Positions 10,906-56,605 of a DNA stretch of 64,000 nt are shown here, piece by piece (the first letter of the stretch is position 1; each line of letters begins with the position of its first letter). A program made the position numbers and the translations under genes. Under the pieces are notes generated by a model. The model was not told the origin of the DNA and ran no database searches. It saw only the letters and a list, made by a program, of their open reading frames with translations. The stretch spans positions 124,001 to 188,000 of the forward strand of contig NZ_VWSF01000008.1 of NCBI RefSeq assembly GCF_008629685.1, given 5' to 3'. This stretch comes from Adhaeribacter rhizoryzae. GTDB taxonomy: Bacteria; Bacteroidota; Bacteroidia; Cytophagales; Hymenobacteraceae.

Positions 10906-12183
10906 ATGGCAAATATTCCGCATTATCCTCTGCAACAGGCCCAGGACTTAGATTTATTAATTCAGGAAATTGGTGATGCCCGCATTGTATTATTGGGCGA
11001 AGCTTCGCACGGTACTTCCGAATATTATACCTGGCGAACAGCTATTTCCAAACGCCTGATTCAGGAAAAAGGCTTTAGTTTTATATCGGTAGAAGGCGAT
11101 TGGCCGGATTGTTTTGAGGTGAATAATTTTATCAAAGGCCAGCGCAACGACAATGCTACCGCGCTGGAAGTACTCGCCACCTATAACCGCTGGCCCACCT
11201 GGATGTGGGGAAACTGGGAAGTTGCGGCGCTGGCCGACTGGCTTAAACAACATAATAATGGTAAACCCGAAAAAGAAAAAGTAGGTTTTTATGGCCTCGA
11301 TGTTTACAGCCTCTGGGATTCGCTGCAGGAAATTCTGGCTTATTTAGAGAAGAAAGATGGTGCGGCTGTTGCAGCGGCCCGCAAAGCTTTCCGGTGCTTT
11401 GAACCTTACTCCGAAGACCCTCAGGAATATGCCCGCGCCGTAGCGTTTGTATCGCAGGATTGTGAAGACGAAGTGGTAAACATGCTACATACGTTACGTA
11501 CCAAAGGGCTGGAGGCTGGTACAACACGCGAGTCGGATTTTGATGCGGAACAAAATGCACTTGTAGCAGTTAATGCCGAAAAATATTACCGGGCCATGAT
11601 TAGGGGCGGCGGCAGTTCCTGGAACGTGCGCGACCGCCACATGATGGAAACCCTGACCCGCCTCCTGGACCTGCACGGACCCAATTCCAAAGCCATAATC
11701 TGGGAGCACAACACCCACGTGGGCGATGCCCGCTACACCGATATGGCCCGCGCCGGCATGATAAACGTAGGTCAACTGGCCCGTGAGCAATACGGCGAAG
11801 AAAACGTGTATATTGTAGGATTTGGTTCTTACAAAGGCTCGGTAATTGCCGCTGATGAATGGGGCGAACCTATGGCGGAAATGGAAGTGCCGGCCGCGCC
11901 ACCGGGTACCTGGGAATACATGCTCCACGAAATAGGGGCTAACAATAAACTTATTTTCTCGAAAGACCTCCGCAACCTGAAAGAGCTGGAAAAATCTATC
12001 GGCCACCGGGCTATTGGGGTGGTGTATCATCCGCGGCGCGAGCGCTTTGGCAACTACGTGCCCACTATAATACCGCGCCGTTACGATGCTTTTGCTTACA
12101 TCGATACTACCCGGGCGTTGCATCCCTTAGCCATTCACCAGGACCATACGCAACCACCAGAATTATATCCTTGGGCAGAGTAA
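10906..12183 (+). CDS. Erythromycin esterase family protein
   Basis: A 425-residue protein of the erythromycin esterase (EreA/B-like) superfamily. Key motifs are present: LLGEASHGTSEYY near residue 26-38, SVEGDWPDCFEVN, and IWEHNTHVGDARYTDM near 265, containing the catalytic-type Glu and His residues. Members hydrolyse macrolide lactone rings in the few cases tested, but most homologues from environmental bacteria have unknown substrates. Length fits the family (about 400-450). AAGAGAAAAATT precedes the ATG, a weak ribosome-binding context. The long palindromic region follows directly after the stop codon. Whether it confers macrolide resistance is not known. Confidence 0.85.
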   Translation: MANIPHYPLQQAQDLDLLIQEIGDARIVLLGEASHGTSEYYTWRTAISKRLIQEKGFSFISVEGDWPDCFEVNNFIKGQRNDNATALEVLATYNRWPTWMWGNWEVAALADWLKQHNNGKPEKEKVGFYGLDVYSLWDSLQEILAYLEKKDGAAVAAARKAFRCFEPYSEDPQEYARAVAFVSQDCEDEVVNMLHTLRTKGLEAGTTRESDFDAEQNALVAVNAEKYYRAMIRGGGSSWNVRDRHMMETLTRLLDLHGPNSKAIIWEHNTHVGDARYTDMARAGMINVGQLAREQYGEENVYIVGFGSYKGSVIAADEWGEPMAEMEVPAAPPGTWEYMLHEIGANNKLIFSKDLRNLKELEKSIGHRAIGVVYHPRRERFGNYVPTIIPRRYDAFAYIDTTRALHPLAIHQDHTQPPELYPWAE

Positions 12184-12391
12184 TTGTTGATGGGTGATGG
12201 CTGGTTGTTAGTTAATGGTTGAATATGGGGTTAGTAACCCACATTTATTATTCAGGAAGAAACTTGTTAGCAGGCAGCCAACAAGTTTGCTCCTGAATAA
12301 TAAAAGTGGGTTTTAGCACTAATATTTTTGATTAAATAATTAAAACCAACAACCAACAACCAATTAGCAACCAGCCATCAATCATCAACAA
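12184..12391. repeat. Nested palindrome between convergent genes
   Basis: The intergenic region between the erythromycin esterase and FRG genes folds on itself. Outer arms are 12184-12213 and 12362-12391, which match as inverted repeats in 26 of 30 positions. Inside lies a separate hairpin (12237-12311, described next). The arms are of the TTGTTGATG / CATCAACAA type and are flanked by further AACAACC units. It may serve as a bidirectional transcription stop. Confidence 0.7.
12237..12311. repeat. Dispersed hairpin element, copy A
   Basis: A 75-nt stem-loop: outer arms of 21 bases (12237-12257 and 12291-12311, 20 of 21 paired), inner stem AACTTGTT / AACAAGTT and the loop AGCAGGCAGCC (12269-12279). 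Copy B at 32339-32411 has an identical loop and differs in the stems by compensatory changes. See the findings. Confidence 0.8.
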
Positions 12392-12394
12392 CAA

Positions 12395-13186
12395 CTAAGT
12401 AGTGGTATAATGGCGGCGGAGCCATTGGCTTAGGCCGGCCAGTCCCGGAAACAGCACCCGTTCGGTAATATTGGCCTGATCCAGTTTATCGCGCACTTCC
12501 CATTTCAGGCGGGCAGGTATTATTATCCGGAAATATAAATCAGAATGGTTGACCAGCCAATCGTTTAAAATCGCATGAGGACTCGACATCATCGAAAACA
12601 AGGCAAACTGGTGTACAATGCGCGCGTCGATCGAAGGTGGCTCCAGAAATATTACAAAGTCTTCTTCCTGAAAAGTACCCAGTTCTTTTAAAGAAGAACA
12701 AACCGGTTCCAGTATTTCGGGGGTAAACACGTTAGAGCCTTCGGCGTAAATGGTTTCCCGCAGTATTTCCGGAATATAATTGTTTGTTTTTACATAGTTA
12801 ATGCACCAGATTGCGGCATCCTTGTCAAAATTATTAAAATCGGCGGTAGCAAAATGCAAGGCCACATACGGCGAATAAGTCCAGTCGAGGAGGCGCGTGG
12901 GCAAGCCGTGGTGCTGGGCTACGGCCAGCCAGTTCCAGACAGAATTTCCCGGTGAAGCATCTTCGTGGGCGTATTTTTTAAAATTGCGAAGCAGGTGATG
13001 TTCCAGCTTGCCGTAATCGCCGCCCAAGCGGATTAAACTCGTTTTTAAATCGTACTTTCTACTGCCCAGCCCCCGGTAAATATACGGCGACCGGAACCGG
13101 TTAATGCGTTCGTCCCAGGAATTATGAAATAAAGCTTTTTGCAGTTCTTCCCAGGATTGTACCACTATGTCGTTTTCTAGCTCCAT
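12395..13186 (-). CDS. FRG domain-containing protein
   Basis: A 263-residue protein that is nearly all FRG domain. The domain's name-giving motif appears as YIYRGLGSRKYDLKTSLIR (residues about 35-53), followed by WNWLAVAQHHGLPTRLLDWTYSP (about 85-107), the second family hallmark, and ALHFATAD. FRG domains occur in bacteria and phages, often alone; their molecular activity is not established, though they are often seen near defence or toxin genes. No signal peptide or membrane segment is present. It stands convergent to the erythromycin esterase gene across the palindrome. A TGAATTTG box (complement of 13203-13210) may be its -7 element. Confidence 0.85.
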   Translation of the reverse strand: MELENDIVVQSWEELQKALFHNSWDERINRFRSPYIYRGLGSRKYDLKTSLIRLGGDYGKLEHHLLRNFKKYAHEDASPGNSVWNWLAVAQHHGLPTRLLDWTYSPYVALHFATADFNNFDKDAAIWCINYVKTNNYIPEILRETIYAEGSNVFTPEILEPVCSSLKELGTFQEEDFVIFLEPPSIDARIVHQFALFSMMSSPHAILNDWLVNHSDLYFRIIIPARLKWEVRDKLDQANITERVLFPGLAGLSQWLRRHYTTT

Positions 13187-15496: not shown

Positions 15497-15529
15497 GTTA
15501 CCCCTGAAAATATTAAAACTAAAGATATT

Positions 15530-15568
15530 AAAACTAAAAAAGCCGGTTTACCCGGCTTTTTTAGTTTT
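15530..15568. terminator. Bidirectional terminator between convergent genes
   Basis: Stem AAACTAAAAAAGCCGG / CCGGCTTTTTTAGTTT with loop TTTAC. It is symmetrical in A/T tracts, so it should stop both the MBL gene and the disordered-protein gene. Confidence 0.87.
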
Positions 15569-15579
15569 AATAAAAATCG

Positions 15580-17931: not shown

Positions 17932-18027
17932 CCATTTATTTAAGAACAAGCTTTAGAGGTTTTTTAAGGTACCCCCGAAACCGGAATACCTACCGCGGTA
18001 AATAATAATTTATCAGTGTTTATAAAT

Positions 18028-18074
18028 AAAATTAGCCGGCCAGTAATATTTAAATATTGCTGGCCGGCTAATTT
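18028..18074. terminator. Long terminator hairpin
   Basis: Stem AAAATTAGCCGGCCAG / CTGGCCGGCTAATTTT closed by a second short stem AATATT/AAATATT. Near-symmetrical A/T tracts make it bidirectional. It ends the small-gene cluster at 16813-17931. Confidence 0.87.
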
Positions 18075-18137
18075 TATTTTATGCCCATATAACTGGTGGC
18101 AAGTGTACGCTTTGCAACTACCTCTACATAATTGTTT

Positions 18138-32224: not shown

Positions 32225-32338
32225 CCAACATTGGCCGTATGGCTGATCGGTTATAAGCTTAAATCCTTTTTAATTTTTTGAACAATACTACTTAGGTATT
32301 AATACTCGCAAATGTTAATATAATAAAGGTTTAAGCAA

Positions 32339-32411
32339 TCCATACTTGTCATTCAGGAGGAAACTATTTAGCAGGCAGCCAAATAGGTTCCTCCTGAATG
32401 ACAAGTGTGGA
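32339..32411. repeat. Dispersed hairpin element, copy B
   Basis: A 73-nt stem-loop: arms 32339-32369 and 32381-32411 pair at 29 of 31 positions, with the loop AGCAGGCAGCC (32370-32380) identical to that of copy A (12237-12311). At least four base pairs differ in a compensating way between the copies, so the shape rather than the sequence is preserved. Confidence 0.8.
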
Positions 32412-32514
32412 CTCCTGTAAATGAATAGTTATTAAATGTCCCTTTGGAGGGGAAGGTTATAAAGATTAAAACGGCAATTTTGCTAAAGCCCTAATTAATC
32501 AGTTTGTAGTAATT

Positions 32515-52862: not shown

Positions 52863-53458
52863 AGGGGAGGCTTATAAAAAGGCAGCATTACCTCTAAAAC
52901 TAAGAAAGGTAGCAGAAGTTATCATAAACAAAATGTTTTTTAAACAAATTTAAATACAAGCTGCAAGCTGTTCAATTGCGGGTGTAATTATTAGTAATAC
53001 CTAAAAATCTAAAACTAGTTTATCAGGGAGTTATCGCTTATTACACAAAACCTTCCTGAGCAATGCTCGCAGTAATTAAGCAATTTATTTTGGGTTCACA
53101 ACTGCCTTAACCAAATAGGTCTATTCTACTTTAACGCAATCGAAAAAATCTTCTTTTTAATAAGTGTTTTTAATTATAGGTATATAAAAACTGGATTTTT
53201 AACAGAAAATAATTCCTGAATTTAAATGTATTGCTTGGTGCAACAAATTGACATTTACCTATGTAAAGTATAAAAATAACATTTTAATATTCTAATTCAA
53301 CTACTAATAATATTAAATATTCTTTATGTATAATGTATTTTACCCCGAACTAGTTTGTTTAAATAATTAATATCAATGGCATTTAATAGCGGTTTATGCC
53401 TTTAAGTAATCAAATATTTTATTCCACCCAATTAATAGTTTACTTAAAACAATGTTGT
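52863..53458. other. AT-rich intergenic region before the glycan-uptake locus
   Basis: About 600 bases with no coding frame. It is AT-rich and should contain the promoter of the SusC operon, but no strong TTTG-N19-TAnnTTTG match is visible; a TTTG occurs at 53354-53357. No direct or inverted repeats stand out. No regulator gene is next to the locus. Confidence 0.6.
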
Positions 53459-56400
53459 ATGATCAATTTTACTCTAAAACACAATTTACCGGCAATCATT
53501 AATCGGCAAGAATTGTTCAGGCACAAATATTATTTTCTCCTATTGTTGGTAACCTTGTTGGTTACGCTTAGTAGTTTCCAAACATTTGCCCAACAAAACA
53601 TTTCTGGCCGGGTAGTTACCAATAAAAATGAAGCATTGCCGGGGGTAACCGTATTGGTAAAAGGAACCAGCACCGGCACCACCACCGATCCTTCGGGTAA
53701 TTATACTATTACATTGCCCACCGGACAGGAAAATGGCGCTTTAATATTCTCTTTTATTGGCTACACAACCCAAGAAGTGCCTGTAAATAACCGGACTACT
53801 ATTAACGTAACCTTAGTTGATGATGCCCAGGCCCTGCAGGAAGTAGTGGTAATTGGTTACCAAACCATCCGGAAGCAGGATTTAACCGGGGCGGCTTCGG
53901 TGATTACCCCGGAAGCGGCGCAGAAAGTAACGGCTAATACCGTCGCCGAATCTATCCAGGGCTTGGCGCCGGGTGTAACGGTCCGGAATACCGGTCGGCC
54001 GGGAGCCGGGGCGGCGGTAGATATTCGGGGCGTGGCCAGCTTTACCAATACCAACCCTTTGTATGTTATTGACGGCATGATTGCCGATGCTTCGCCTACC
54101 CTGAACAACGATGATATTGAATCTATCCAAATATTAAAAGATGCTTCGGCGGCAGCTATTTACGGCTCCCGGGCGGGTAACGGCGTAATTATTATTACCA
54201 CTAAAAAAGGGCGGGAAGGCCCGGCCAAAGTGGGCGTATCGGTTAAGCAGGGCGTGCAGCAGTTGCCAAAATTATGGGATGTTATGAATTCGGAAGAATT
54301 TGCCGCCACCCAACGCCAGCAATATATTAACTCGGGCGCTACACCGCCGGCCAGTGTGGCTTTAACGCCAATTACGGGGCCAGGTGCTGTTCGGCATTAT
54401 ACAGTAACCGACACCGACTGGCAGGACGAAATTACCCAACTTGGTACCTTATCGGATTACAACCTTACTTTATCGGGTGGCGGACAAGCGGGTAATTATT
54501 TAATATCAGGCTCTTATTTTACCAACGAGGGCGTGGTAACCGGTAACTCATTCGACCGGGCCAGCGTGCGCATCAATACCCAGGGCACCAAAGGCCGGAT
54601 TACTTTCGGCGAAAATCTGGTATTAAGCCATTCCTGGGAAGAACGGCCCTTATTGGTAAACCCCTTCTACGACATGCCCCAGTTGCTGCCGGTTATTCCG
54701 GTGAGAGATCCTAGTTTAGTGGGTCCCGGCAACCCCGGCGGCTGGGGCCTCGGCGACCCGGTTACCGCCCCGGTTTACGCCTGGAATTATATTGCCATGA
54801 CTAATTTATTTAATACCACGCATAAATATTCCAGGGTAGTTGGCAATGCTTACGCCGATGTAAAAATATTTGATTGGCTAACTTACCGGTTTAATGCCGG
54901 CTTAGATGGCGGCTTCGATTTTCACCAGAACATCCGGACCTTGGGTAACTGGGTGCTGGGCCAGGCTTTTGAACCTACTCACGTATATCAGGATCGGCAG
55001 GAATTTCATACTGTATTACTGGAAAATACAGTTAATTTTAACAAAACCTTGGGTGTTCATAACCTAAACGGGGTTTTGGGTTATACGCAGCAACGCACCC
55101 GCCGCGACCGCATGGAAGCCCGGCGTAATGATCTCCAGAGTTTTGGCGGCCAGGACCTAACCACTATTAGTTCGGCCATTGGGGACCAGACTTCGGAGGG
55201 CCGGGTAATGGAAGATTATCATATTTATGGTACCCTGGGCCGGATAAATTATACTTATAACGATAAATATTTGCTAACCCTGACCGGCCGGTACGACCAG
55301 GATTCCCGGTTTGGCCCCGATAACCGCAGTAAATTTTTCCCGTCCATCGCTCTGGGCTGGCGCTTGAGCCAAGAAAGTTTCCTGGAAAACTATGACTGGA
55401 TATCTGACCTGAAACTACGGGCTTCCTACGGCCAGTTGGGTATTGCCACGGTGGGTTCCTGGGATTATATTGGCGTAATAAATAATAACCCCCGGGTAGT
55501 TTTTGGGGCCGATAACCAAACCATAGCCGTTGGGGCTTACCAGGCCAGCTTAACCAATCCGGATTTACGCTGGGAAATCCGGACTTCCCGCAATATTGGG
55601 TTAGATGGCACCTTTCTGAATAACCGGGTTTTAGTAACCGCCGAATATTATAATTCTTTATCCGAAGACGTTTTGGTGCGGCTGCCTATTCCATTTTACA
55701 CCGGTAACCTGGGCGGCGATCCTTTTGTAAATGCCGCCTCTATCCGCAACCGGGGCGTCGAGTTCTCGGCTACTTACCGCAGCTCCGAAAATCCGTTTAA
55801 GTGGGATGTATCGGCTAATTTTACCACCATTAAAAACGAGGTAGAAGATGTGGGTAACCGGGGCGAAGGCATTAATTACCTGGTAGCTGGTAACACGCGT
55901 TCCCAAATTGGCCGGGGCATTGGCGAATGGTACGTCGTGAAAACCAACGGTATTTTCCAGACCGAAGAAGAAGTACTAAATCATAAAAACTCAGCCGGTC
56001 AGGTTATTCAACCCTTTTCTAAGCCCGGCGATATCCGGTTCGTGGATTTAAACGACGATGGCCAGATTAACGACGATGATCGTACTTTTGCCGGTTCTCC
56101 CTGGCCTACCCTGCAAACTGGCGCTCAGTTTAATGCGGCTTACGGCGGCTTTAATTTTAACCTGCAGTTGATAGGCGTATTCGGGCATACCGTTTACAAC
56201 GATGTTAGAAGAATTCTGGACTCTTATGTAAACACCAACTTCCGGCGCGATATTAACCCCTGGACTCCTGAAAACCGCAATACCAGCGATCCGCGTTTGG
56301 GCCGTAATACCGACCCCGGCATAGATTTTAATAACCGGGGATCCAGCGACCGCTGGCTGGAAAAAGCTTCTTATGTGCGGGTACGTAACGTAGAAATTGG

Positions 56401-56605
56401 TTATAACCTGCCCGCCACTTTCTTAAGCCGCTTGCATACCAATAATGCCCGCGTATTTATCAGTGGCCAGAACTTACTAACCTTTACCGATTATTCTGGC
56501 TTAGACCCTGATGTTACCGGTAATGGCATTCTGGAGCGGGGCGTAGATGCTGGTAGCTGGCCGGCCAGCCGGGTATATTCAATTGGGCTAAATTTTGAGT
56601 TCTAG
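53459..56605 (+). CDS. SusC/RagA-family TonB-dependent outer-membrane transporter
   Basis: A 1048-residue transporter. The signal segment (about 20-46) ends in FAQQ. A CarboxypepD_reg-like domain follows (NISGRVVTNKNEALPGVTVLVKG, FSFIGYTTQEV), then the TonB box-type EVVVIGYQTIRKQDLTGA (about 130) and the plug (about 140-240, VYVIDGMIADA, QILKDASAAAIYGSRAGNG). The rest is the 22-strand beta-barrel, ending VYSIGLNFEF with a C-terminal Phe. It imports glycan fragments together with the SusD lipoprotein encoded next. I chose the ATG at 53459; an ATG at 53396 adds 21 residues. Confidence 0.94.
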   Translation: MINFTLKHNLPAIINRQELFRHKYYFLLLLVTLLVTLSSFQTFAQQNISGRVVTNKNEALPGVTVLVKGTSTGTTTDPSGNYTITLPTGQENGALIFSFIGYTTQEVPVNNRTTINVTLVDDAQALQEVVVIGYQTIRKQDLTGAASVITPEAAQKVTANTVAESIQGLAPGVTVRNTGRPGAGAAVDIRGVASFTNTNPLYVIDGMIADASPTLNNDDIESIQILKDASAAAIYGSRAGNGVIIITTKKGREGPAKVGVSVKQGVQQLPKLWDVMNSEEFAATQRQQYINSGATPPASVALTPITGPGAVRHYTVTDTDWQDEITQLGTLSDYNLTLSGGGQAGNYLISGSYFTNEGVVTGNSFDRASVRINTQGTKGRITFGENLVLSHSWEERPLLVNPFYDMPQLLPVIPVRDPSLVGPGNPGGWGLGDPVTAPVYAWNYIAMTNLFNTTHKYSRVVGNAYADVKIFDWLTYRFNAGLDGGFDFHQNIRTLGNWVLGQAFEPTHVYQDRQEFHTVLLENTVNFNKTLGVHNLNGVLGYTQQRTRRDRMEARRNDLQSFGGQDLTTISSAIGDQTSEGRVMEDYHIYGTLGRINYTYNDKYLLTLTGRYDQDSRFGPDNRSKFFPSIALGWRLSQESFLENYDWISDLKLRASYGQLGIATVGSWDYIGVINNNPRVVFGADNQTIAVGAYQASLTNPDLRWEIRTSRNIGLDGTFLNNRVLVTAEYYNSLSEDVLVRLPIPFYTGNLGGDPFVNAASIRNRGVEFSATYRSSENPFKWDVSANFTTIKNEVEDVGNRGEGINYLVAGNTRSQIGRGIGEWYVVKTNGIFQTEEEVLNHKNSAGQVIQPFSKPGDIRFVDLNDDGQINDDDRTFAGSPWPTLQTGAQFNAAYGGFNFNLQLIGVFGHTVYNDVRRILDSYVNTNFRRDINPWTPENRNTSDPRLGRNTDPGIDFNNRGSSDRWLEKASYVRVRNVEIGYNLPATFLSRLHTNNARVFISGQNLLTFTDYSGLDPDVTGNGILERGVDAGSWPASRVYSIGLNFEF

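Follow-up and report, generated by a model that had tools for sequence, protein, structure and literature searches.

Two hairpins in the window, by which we mean the whole 64,000-nucleotide stretch of Adhaeribacter rhizoryzae DNA that was analysed, are probably old copies of a nested palindromic MITE, non-autonomous and about 160 bp long, and they fold because the element is palindromic. On the outside of the element, CTGATGTTACGCAAA would serve as terminal inverted repeats, leaving an AT-rich target duplication of 7 bp, and on the inside would lie an apex of two REP-like units placed head to head. It would spread by means of a transposase supplied in trans. During replication, polymerase template switching between the arms would sometimes copy one arm onto the other and flip the loop, a step that our comparisons bear out in part and that could change both sides of the stem with no RNA under selection. 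The object is thus of an ordinary kind, a palindromic MITE whose apex is REP-like, in an informative form. The first-pass annotation had offered two options. A mobile palindromic element of REP/MITE type stands, given the copy number, the terminal inverted repeats in part of the copies, the target-duplication signals, one empty site, the dimer and some loop inversions, whereas conservation of shape under selection has not been demonstrated. The explanation is tempered because one-sided changes prevail between orthologs.

Both hairpins are real, and sequence, folding and an inverted-repeat listing place them within a few bases of where they had been annotated. The palindromic apex of copy 1 occupies positions 12236-12312 of the forward strand (arms 12236-12271 and 12277-12312) and that of copy 2 positions 32334-32416 of the same strand (arms 32334-32372 and 32378-32416), and their arms are the two longest among the 19 inverted-repeat pairs listed in the window. 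RNA folding gives -50.7 kcal/mol (z -10.9) for copy 1 and -42.6 kcal/mol (z -9.0) for copy 2, with none of 200 shuffles as good in either case. Within the window, an exact pattern search on both strands finds the common loop AGCAGGCAGCC at 12269-12279 and 32370-32380 and nowhere else. When 37 stem positions were compared, 32 of them paired in each copy, six were changed on both sides, all of them Watson-Crick (GC/TA, TA/AT, TA/CG, AT/GC, TA/CG and CG/TA), with 0 in each of six slid controls; the earlier figure of at least four was an undercount. Alignment A1 places a 57-nt core in each apex. The core of copy 1 (12246-12302, forward strand, positioned from the loop centre) consists of two REP-like units head to head whose heads have diverged to TATT/AATA, and the core of copy 2 (32347-32403, forward strand, TGTCATTC...GAATGACA, also identified by the unit search) pairs two CGTC-like REP units head to head.

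The contexts had likewise been read correctly. The convergent ORFs on either side of copy 1 carry PF05139 (erythromycin esterase) and PF08867 (FRG), and copy 2 lies inside an ABC export cluster (ABC_tran, MacB-FtsX and HlyD). In the sister genome G019 copy 2 is found at the same place; in G003, G014 and G024 the genes neighbouring it match, but the stretch with a 134-aa ORF and the hairpin does not. Terminal inverted repeats were not established at either window copy, where, in the end scan, the two sides of each copy had 6 and 7 mismatches out of 15. A candidate remnant of the left repeat of copy 2 (TAATACTCGCAAAT) was recognised by eye at 32300-32313 of the forward strand; its right counterpart is not recognisable. 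Copy 1 is surrounded by a further, imperfect outer inverted repeat at 12179-12396, with no strand assigned, whose arms (12179-12232 and 12343-12396) are 74% complementary and abound in CAACCA units; it is possibly another end type. The window copies are most likely immobile relics between genes. Two other long inverted repeats of the window, at 18024-18079 (28 nt, 96%) and 15526-15572 (21 nt, 100%), have no match to the covariance model described below, and the protein of 53396-56605 had no match among viral contigs.

A search of the genome and its relatives yielded many further copies, and the motif reaches well beyond the window. The loop has 30 exact matches (14 + 16) in the 6.5 Mb genome against 0 + 1 for the reversed pattern; 24 of the 30 form the hairpin and 6 do not, the folds being judged by eye. 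Alignment A1 comprises 20 of the 24 hairpins, the disrupted copies L010, L012, L023 and L027 being left out, and the covariance model built from it (R1) has at least 118 distinct sites on both strands of the genome among the 150 that were scored of 3165 candidates. Two of these lie in the window, at 12231-12317 (91.1 bits) and 32332-32418 (101.9 bits), where the copies are part of the model and match by construction. Matches were obtained in all eight genomes of the genus, to which G019 belongs, with two in the weakest genome, and in 51 of 120 genomes of a family sample that includes these eight. Among named genomes, in a search that may not include the genome of the window itself, an exact core match was found in Adhaeribacter aerolatus NBRC 106133 only. 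The loop, previously called invariant, is not so in the family: AGCAGGTAGCC is common, as are further variants, and the loop is sometimes inverted. In L010, L023, L040, L043, L044 and L047 a second small hairpin (GGAATACTTGTATTCC or GGAATCCTCGGATTCC) sits within one arm at a similar relative place, and L039, from the same genome, has an arm hairpin in another form. The right flank of L006, oriented by the loop, carries beside the copy GGTCATCCTGAGCTTGTCGAAGGATCT, a repeat type that is common in many bacterial genomes.

Outward from the loop, each copy consists of the core, TGTCATTCAGGAGGAA[A/C]CTATTT-loop-AAATAG[T/G]TTCCTCCTGAATGACA, followed by variable, partly paired outer arms and then, where it is still present, by the end CTGATGTTACGCAAA, mostly 42-58 bases out; the whole is a MITE-like insertion of about 160 bp. 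We scanned 122 copies for this end, allowing up to 4 of 15 mismatches, and found it on the left in 48 and on the right in 54, with random sequence giving about 2% per side. The apex lies between terminal inverted repeats at both sides in 32 copies, one end is retained in 38 and none in 52. The flanks of the 32 two-ended copies repeat best at a length of 7 bases (mismatch 0.397 versus 0.488 when shuffled, p 0.0004), the second-best of the seven lengths tried being 9 (p 0.031). The duplicated sequence is AT-rich, typically TTANTAA; it is exact in only 3 of the 32 copies, which counts against our explanation, and has one mismatch in 6 more. A replicate in G019, where both ends are found at 6 of 38 loci, again gave length 7 (p 0.016), with none of the other lengths from 3 to 10 below 0.16.

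Three loci (L032, L046 and L075) were used for an empty-site test in G019. L032 is 162 bp long, its ends having 0 and 1 mismatch, and its site is empty in G019, although not base-exact: only 21 bp separate the flanks (79% and 89% identity), compared to 183 bp when filled. L046 is probably empty as well, but its flanks are too diverged for a firm call, so that L032 gave the one clear result of the three. At L276, ends of the same type enclose a different, shorter hairpin in place of the REP dimer.

The covariation that the first-pass annotation had suspected across copies is real, but selection on shape does not follow from it. In A1, 13 of 33 pairs are changed on both sides, which exceeds 500 of 500 shuffles and every slide, in a count that mixes families since two of the 20 members (L001 and L025) are of the second-family type described below. 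An RNA element whose shape is under selection, that is a 3'-end stabiliser, an attenuator or a small RNA, would be in keeping with this covariation and with the strong folding of both hairpins. It would also suit the better preservation of the core than of the ends in the 32 complete copies (0.045 versus 0.186 mismatches per site) and the gene arrangement at the 43 copies with long flanks. By raw counts from a simple ORF caller, without background, 16 of these 43 have convergent neighbours, 23 have co-directional ones (16 in the loop sense and 7 against it), 3 have divergent ones and 1 is undetermined; 1 of the 43 overlaps an ORF of at least 110 codons. However, the non-Watson-Crick cells on the loop strand comprise 32 G-T and 40 A-C in the core stem and 156 G-T and 217 A-C in the outer arms; with G-T no commoner than A-C, there is no G-U excess and hence no trace of RNA pairing on that strand. 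Some orthologs have inverted loops and stem changes are mostly one-sided, and in L347, the G019 ortholog of L114, the ends are retained while about 69 bases including the apex are gone. Furthermore, the window has no Rfam match over gathering score, and, by eye, neither hairpin is followed directly by five or more T in a row. We consider an RNA element quite improbable, and the hairpins are unlikely to be an RNA gene.

For the nested MITE, the ortholog pairs with G019 provide a finer view of how the stems change. Seventeen pairs were aligned and 13 counted; L114/L347 was dropped because the apex is deleted in G019, and L132/L308, L171/L309 and L131/L335 were dropped for weak or one-sided flanks. 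Loop inversion is clear in three of the 13, namely L112, L124 and L029, which is the window copy at 32339 (6 of 11 mismatches directly, 2 of 11 as reverse complement), and weak in two (L149 and L173). Across the 11 pairs that are in register, changes affect a single side at 30 stem positions and both sides at 5, and the paired positions are often fewer in one ortholog, in the worst case 17 instead of 23. The outer arms of these pairs differ at 14 of 352 bases and the flanks by about 3-23%. L010 and L098 were left out of these counts because a side hairpin shifts the register; with both included, the outer arms differ at 31 of 416 bases and one-sided changes outnumber two-sided ones by 50 to 5. 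The one-sided changes and the loss of pairing indicate that neither template switching nor selection maintains pairing strictly. The mean number of core-arm mismatches, out of 46, is 2.52 in the 52 copies with no end, 2.06 in complete copies and 3.13 in one-ended copies. As the core arms of end-less copies are nearly as good, in a search that itself favours good cores, decay alone is no explanation, and selection or conversion may contribute to pairing. The outer arms are little changed despite the divergence of the flanks, so that selection on the core may play a part.

Template switching in inverted repeats has been described as leading to arm homogenisation and spacer inversion (PMC8604942), and repeated switching has been proposed as a reason why short inverted repeats are better conserved than the DNA around them (PMC8604942, PMC7202029, as far as the available text of both goes). 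The hairpins share the spacer inversion with the cases in those texts and partly the arm homogenisation. They differ in that the cases presented there concern yeast coding sequences and an E. coli reporter, whereas here a dispersed mobile family is involved and the stem changes between orthologs are mostly one-sided. Alternatively, gene conversion could exchange apexes and be the main maker of two-sided changes and loop flips, ahead of template switching. All five two-sided ortholog changes cluster in two pairs, L173/L319 and L124/L311, as conversion would predict; in the former, inner stem and loop changed together between flanks that are 90-97% identical, and second-family cores are found between first-family ends (L281, and L221 in G034). 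The arms are nevertheless short for homologous recombination, and the loop flip of L029/L315, with its unchanged outer arms, requires no donor. We regard conversion in this leading role as a possible but rather doubtful alternative.

The apex itself is built from two copies of a short unit, TGTC-ATTC...GAAT-CT, placed head to head. With up to two mismatches, the unit GTCATTCYGGARGAATCT has 158 forward and 160 reverse matches and the reversed pattern 0 and 0; among the matches listed, a unit and its partner on the other strand usually face each other at a distance of 37 bp. The head positions are T, G, T and C in 116, 118, 121 and 111 of 122 copies, window copy 1 having TATT instead. Judged by eye, the unit ATTCY-GRA-RGAAT has a stem of 5 bp and a loop of 3 nt and is degenerate in the main family. 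According to the accessible portion of Di Nocera, De Gregorio and Rocco (2013; PMC3733652), CGTC-tagged REPs have a CGTC, TGTC or CCTC head, a stem of 8-9 bp, a loop of 4-5 nt and a CCA tail. Common to these and the element studied here are a TGTC head, a unit starting with AT, head-to-head dimers, many intergenic copies and, within the compass of that text, the absence of a dedicated transposase. Our unit differs in its 5-bp or degenerate stem and 3-nt loop, and is followed by CT instead of CCA; since stem, loop and tail depart from the published definition, we call it CGTC-like. The nesting is not new in itself, because the same text already places REP dimers within palindromes in H. neapolitanus, where every CGTC-1 dimer lies inside 41-bp palindromes, and in A. 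variabilis. The outer repeats with 7-bp or 3-bp target-duplication signals found here have no counterpart among the CGTC REPs in the part of PMC3733652 consulted. Likened by features, bacterial MITEs named there (RUP, NEMIS, Bcr1, ERIC, Nezha and EFAR) share the 70-300 bp size, terminal inverted repeats, non-coding nature and hairpin formation with our element, whose apex differs in being a REP dimer that occurs in families with different ends.

It is also conceivable that the apex is an independent REP moved by a RAYT (Y1 tyrosine transposase) and that the outer repeats are merely its target. The genome has ten Y1_Tnp matches, nine over cut-off, and the head-to-head dimers resemble those of CGTC REPs as described in the available part of PMC3733652. 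A copy adjoins a Y1 gene at L105, on one side only; this is the single adjacency among the ten Y1 loci, and we rejected the link. A strong apex match was present in the fetched flanks of that one locus in ten, with a second reaching 15.7 bits (E 0.37). Moreover, the RAYT-like Y1 gene of L105 is bracketed, by eye, by inverted copies of a different palindrome, GGCGCGGAAGTTACTTCCG, at about 867-894 and 1598-1624; this may perhaps be the REP of the RAYTs of this genome. The GTAG tag, a criterion of RAYT-associated REPs, was not found at the head of the copies. Finally, the duplications fit the outer ends, and to our knowledge Y1 elements leave no target duplications. Mobilisation by a RAYT therefore appears improbable. 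Apex copies adjoin the GGCGCGGAAGTTACTTCCG palindrome at L105/L109 and L181.

In addition to the nested MITE with ends CTGATGTTACGCAAA, the same genome harbours a second family, in which a homologous apex lies between ends TACCANTATNAAA flanked by a 3-bp duplication, TWA. Its cores are GTCATTC[C/T]GGA[A/G]GAATCTT and closely similar sequences, several of which have the loop AGCAGGTAGCC (e.g. L254 and L259). Under a strict cut, both ends were found in 24 of 43 elements, where the signal at length 3 was reached in 0 of 5000 shuffles and the duplication is exact in 12 of 24. Loose ends, present in 24 of 25 elements, gave p 0.004 for length 3, and 8 new two-ended elements (of 17) taken alone gave p 0.05, the tested sets overlapping. 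In two other species the apex lies, by eye, between ends CGTGAGTTCGA; a 9-base repeat, TTAGGTTAA, stands at both sides of L194, and L191 retains 6 of 9 bases. Second-type cores also occur between first-type ends, in the L281 and L221 elements already mentioned. These data suggest, in a reading that we hold tentatively and that is close to evenly balanced, that one REP-dimer apex serves as an exchangeable module of at least two MITE families in one genome (CTGATGTTACGCAAA with 7 bp and TACCANTATNAAA with 3 bp), which, given their different duplication lengths, would probably be moved by different transposases.

A transposase with ends CTGATGTTACGCAAA was not found, which also counts against our explanation: no cognate autonomous element was seen around the 71 end-pattern matches of the genome (control 10) or among its nine PF01609 matches. 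Of the 71, 32 lie more than 250 bases from any listed R1 site; the apex is nevertheless present at several of these, and C12:214049 belongs to copy L012. Around the remaining matches, any partner end at insertion-sequence distance has 4 or more mismatches of 15. DDE_Tnp_1 (PF01609) was rejected as the source, as the complete element L353 has other ends. Several of the nine loci lie at contig edges, and the best end-pattern match at any of the nine has 4 of 15 mismatches.

As far as text searches reach, we found no earlier description of this element family in the literature. What is new is that a single, exchangeable REP-dimer apex is combined with two types of end, and this bears on the spread of CGTC REPs. 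The available sections of Di Nocera et al. (PMC3733652) tie none of these REPs to a transposase and leave their route of movement open; a testable one is now offered by the signals for ends and duplications that surround REP-like dimers. The hairpins also serve as a warning that palindromic DNA can covary strongly without any RNA being under selection. If the modular reading is true, CGTC-type REPs, themselves lacking a transposase, would ride as apex passengers in palindromes moved by several DDE transposases, and the apex would be renewed and flipped through exchange or template switching.
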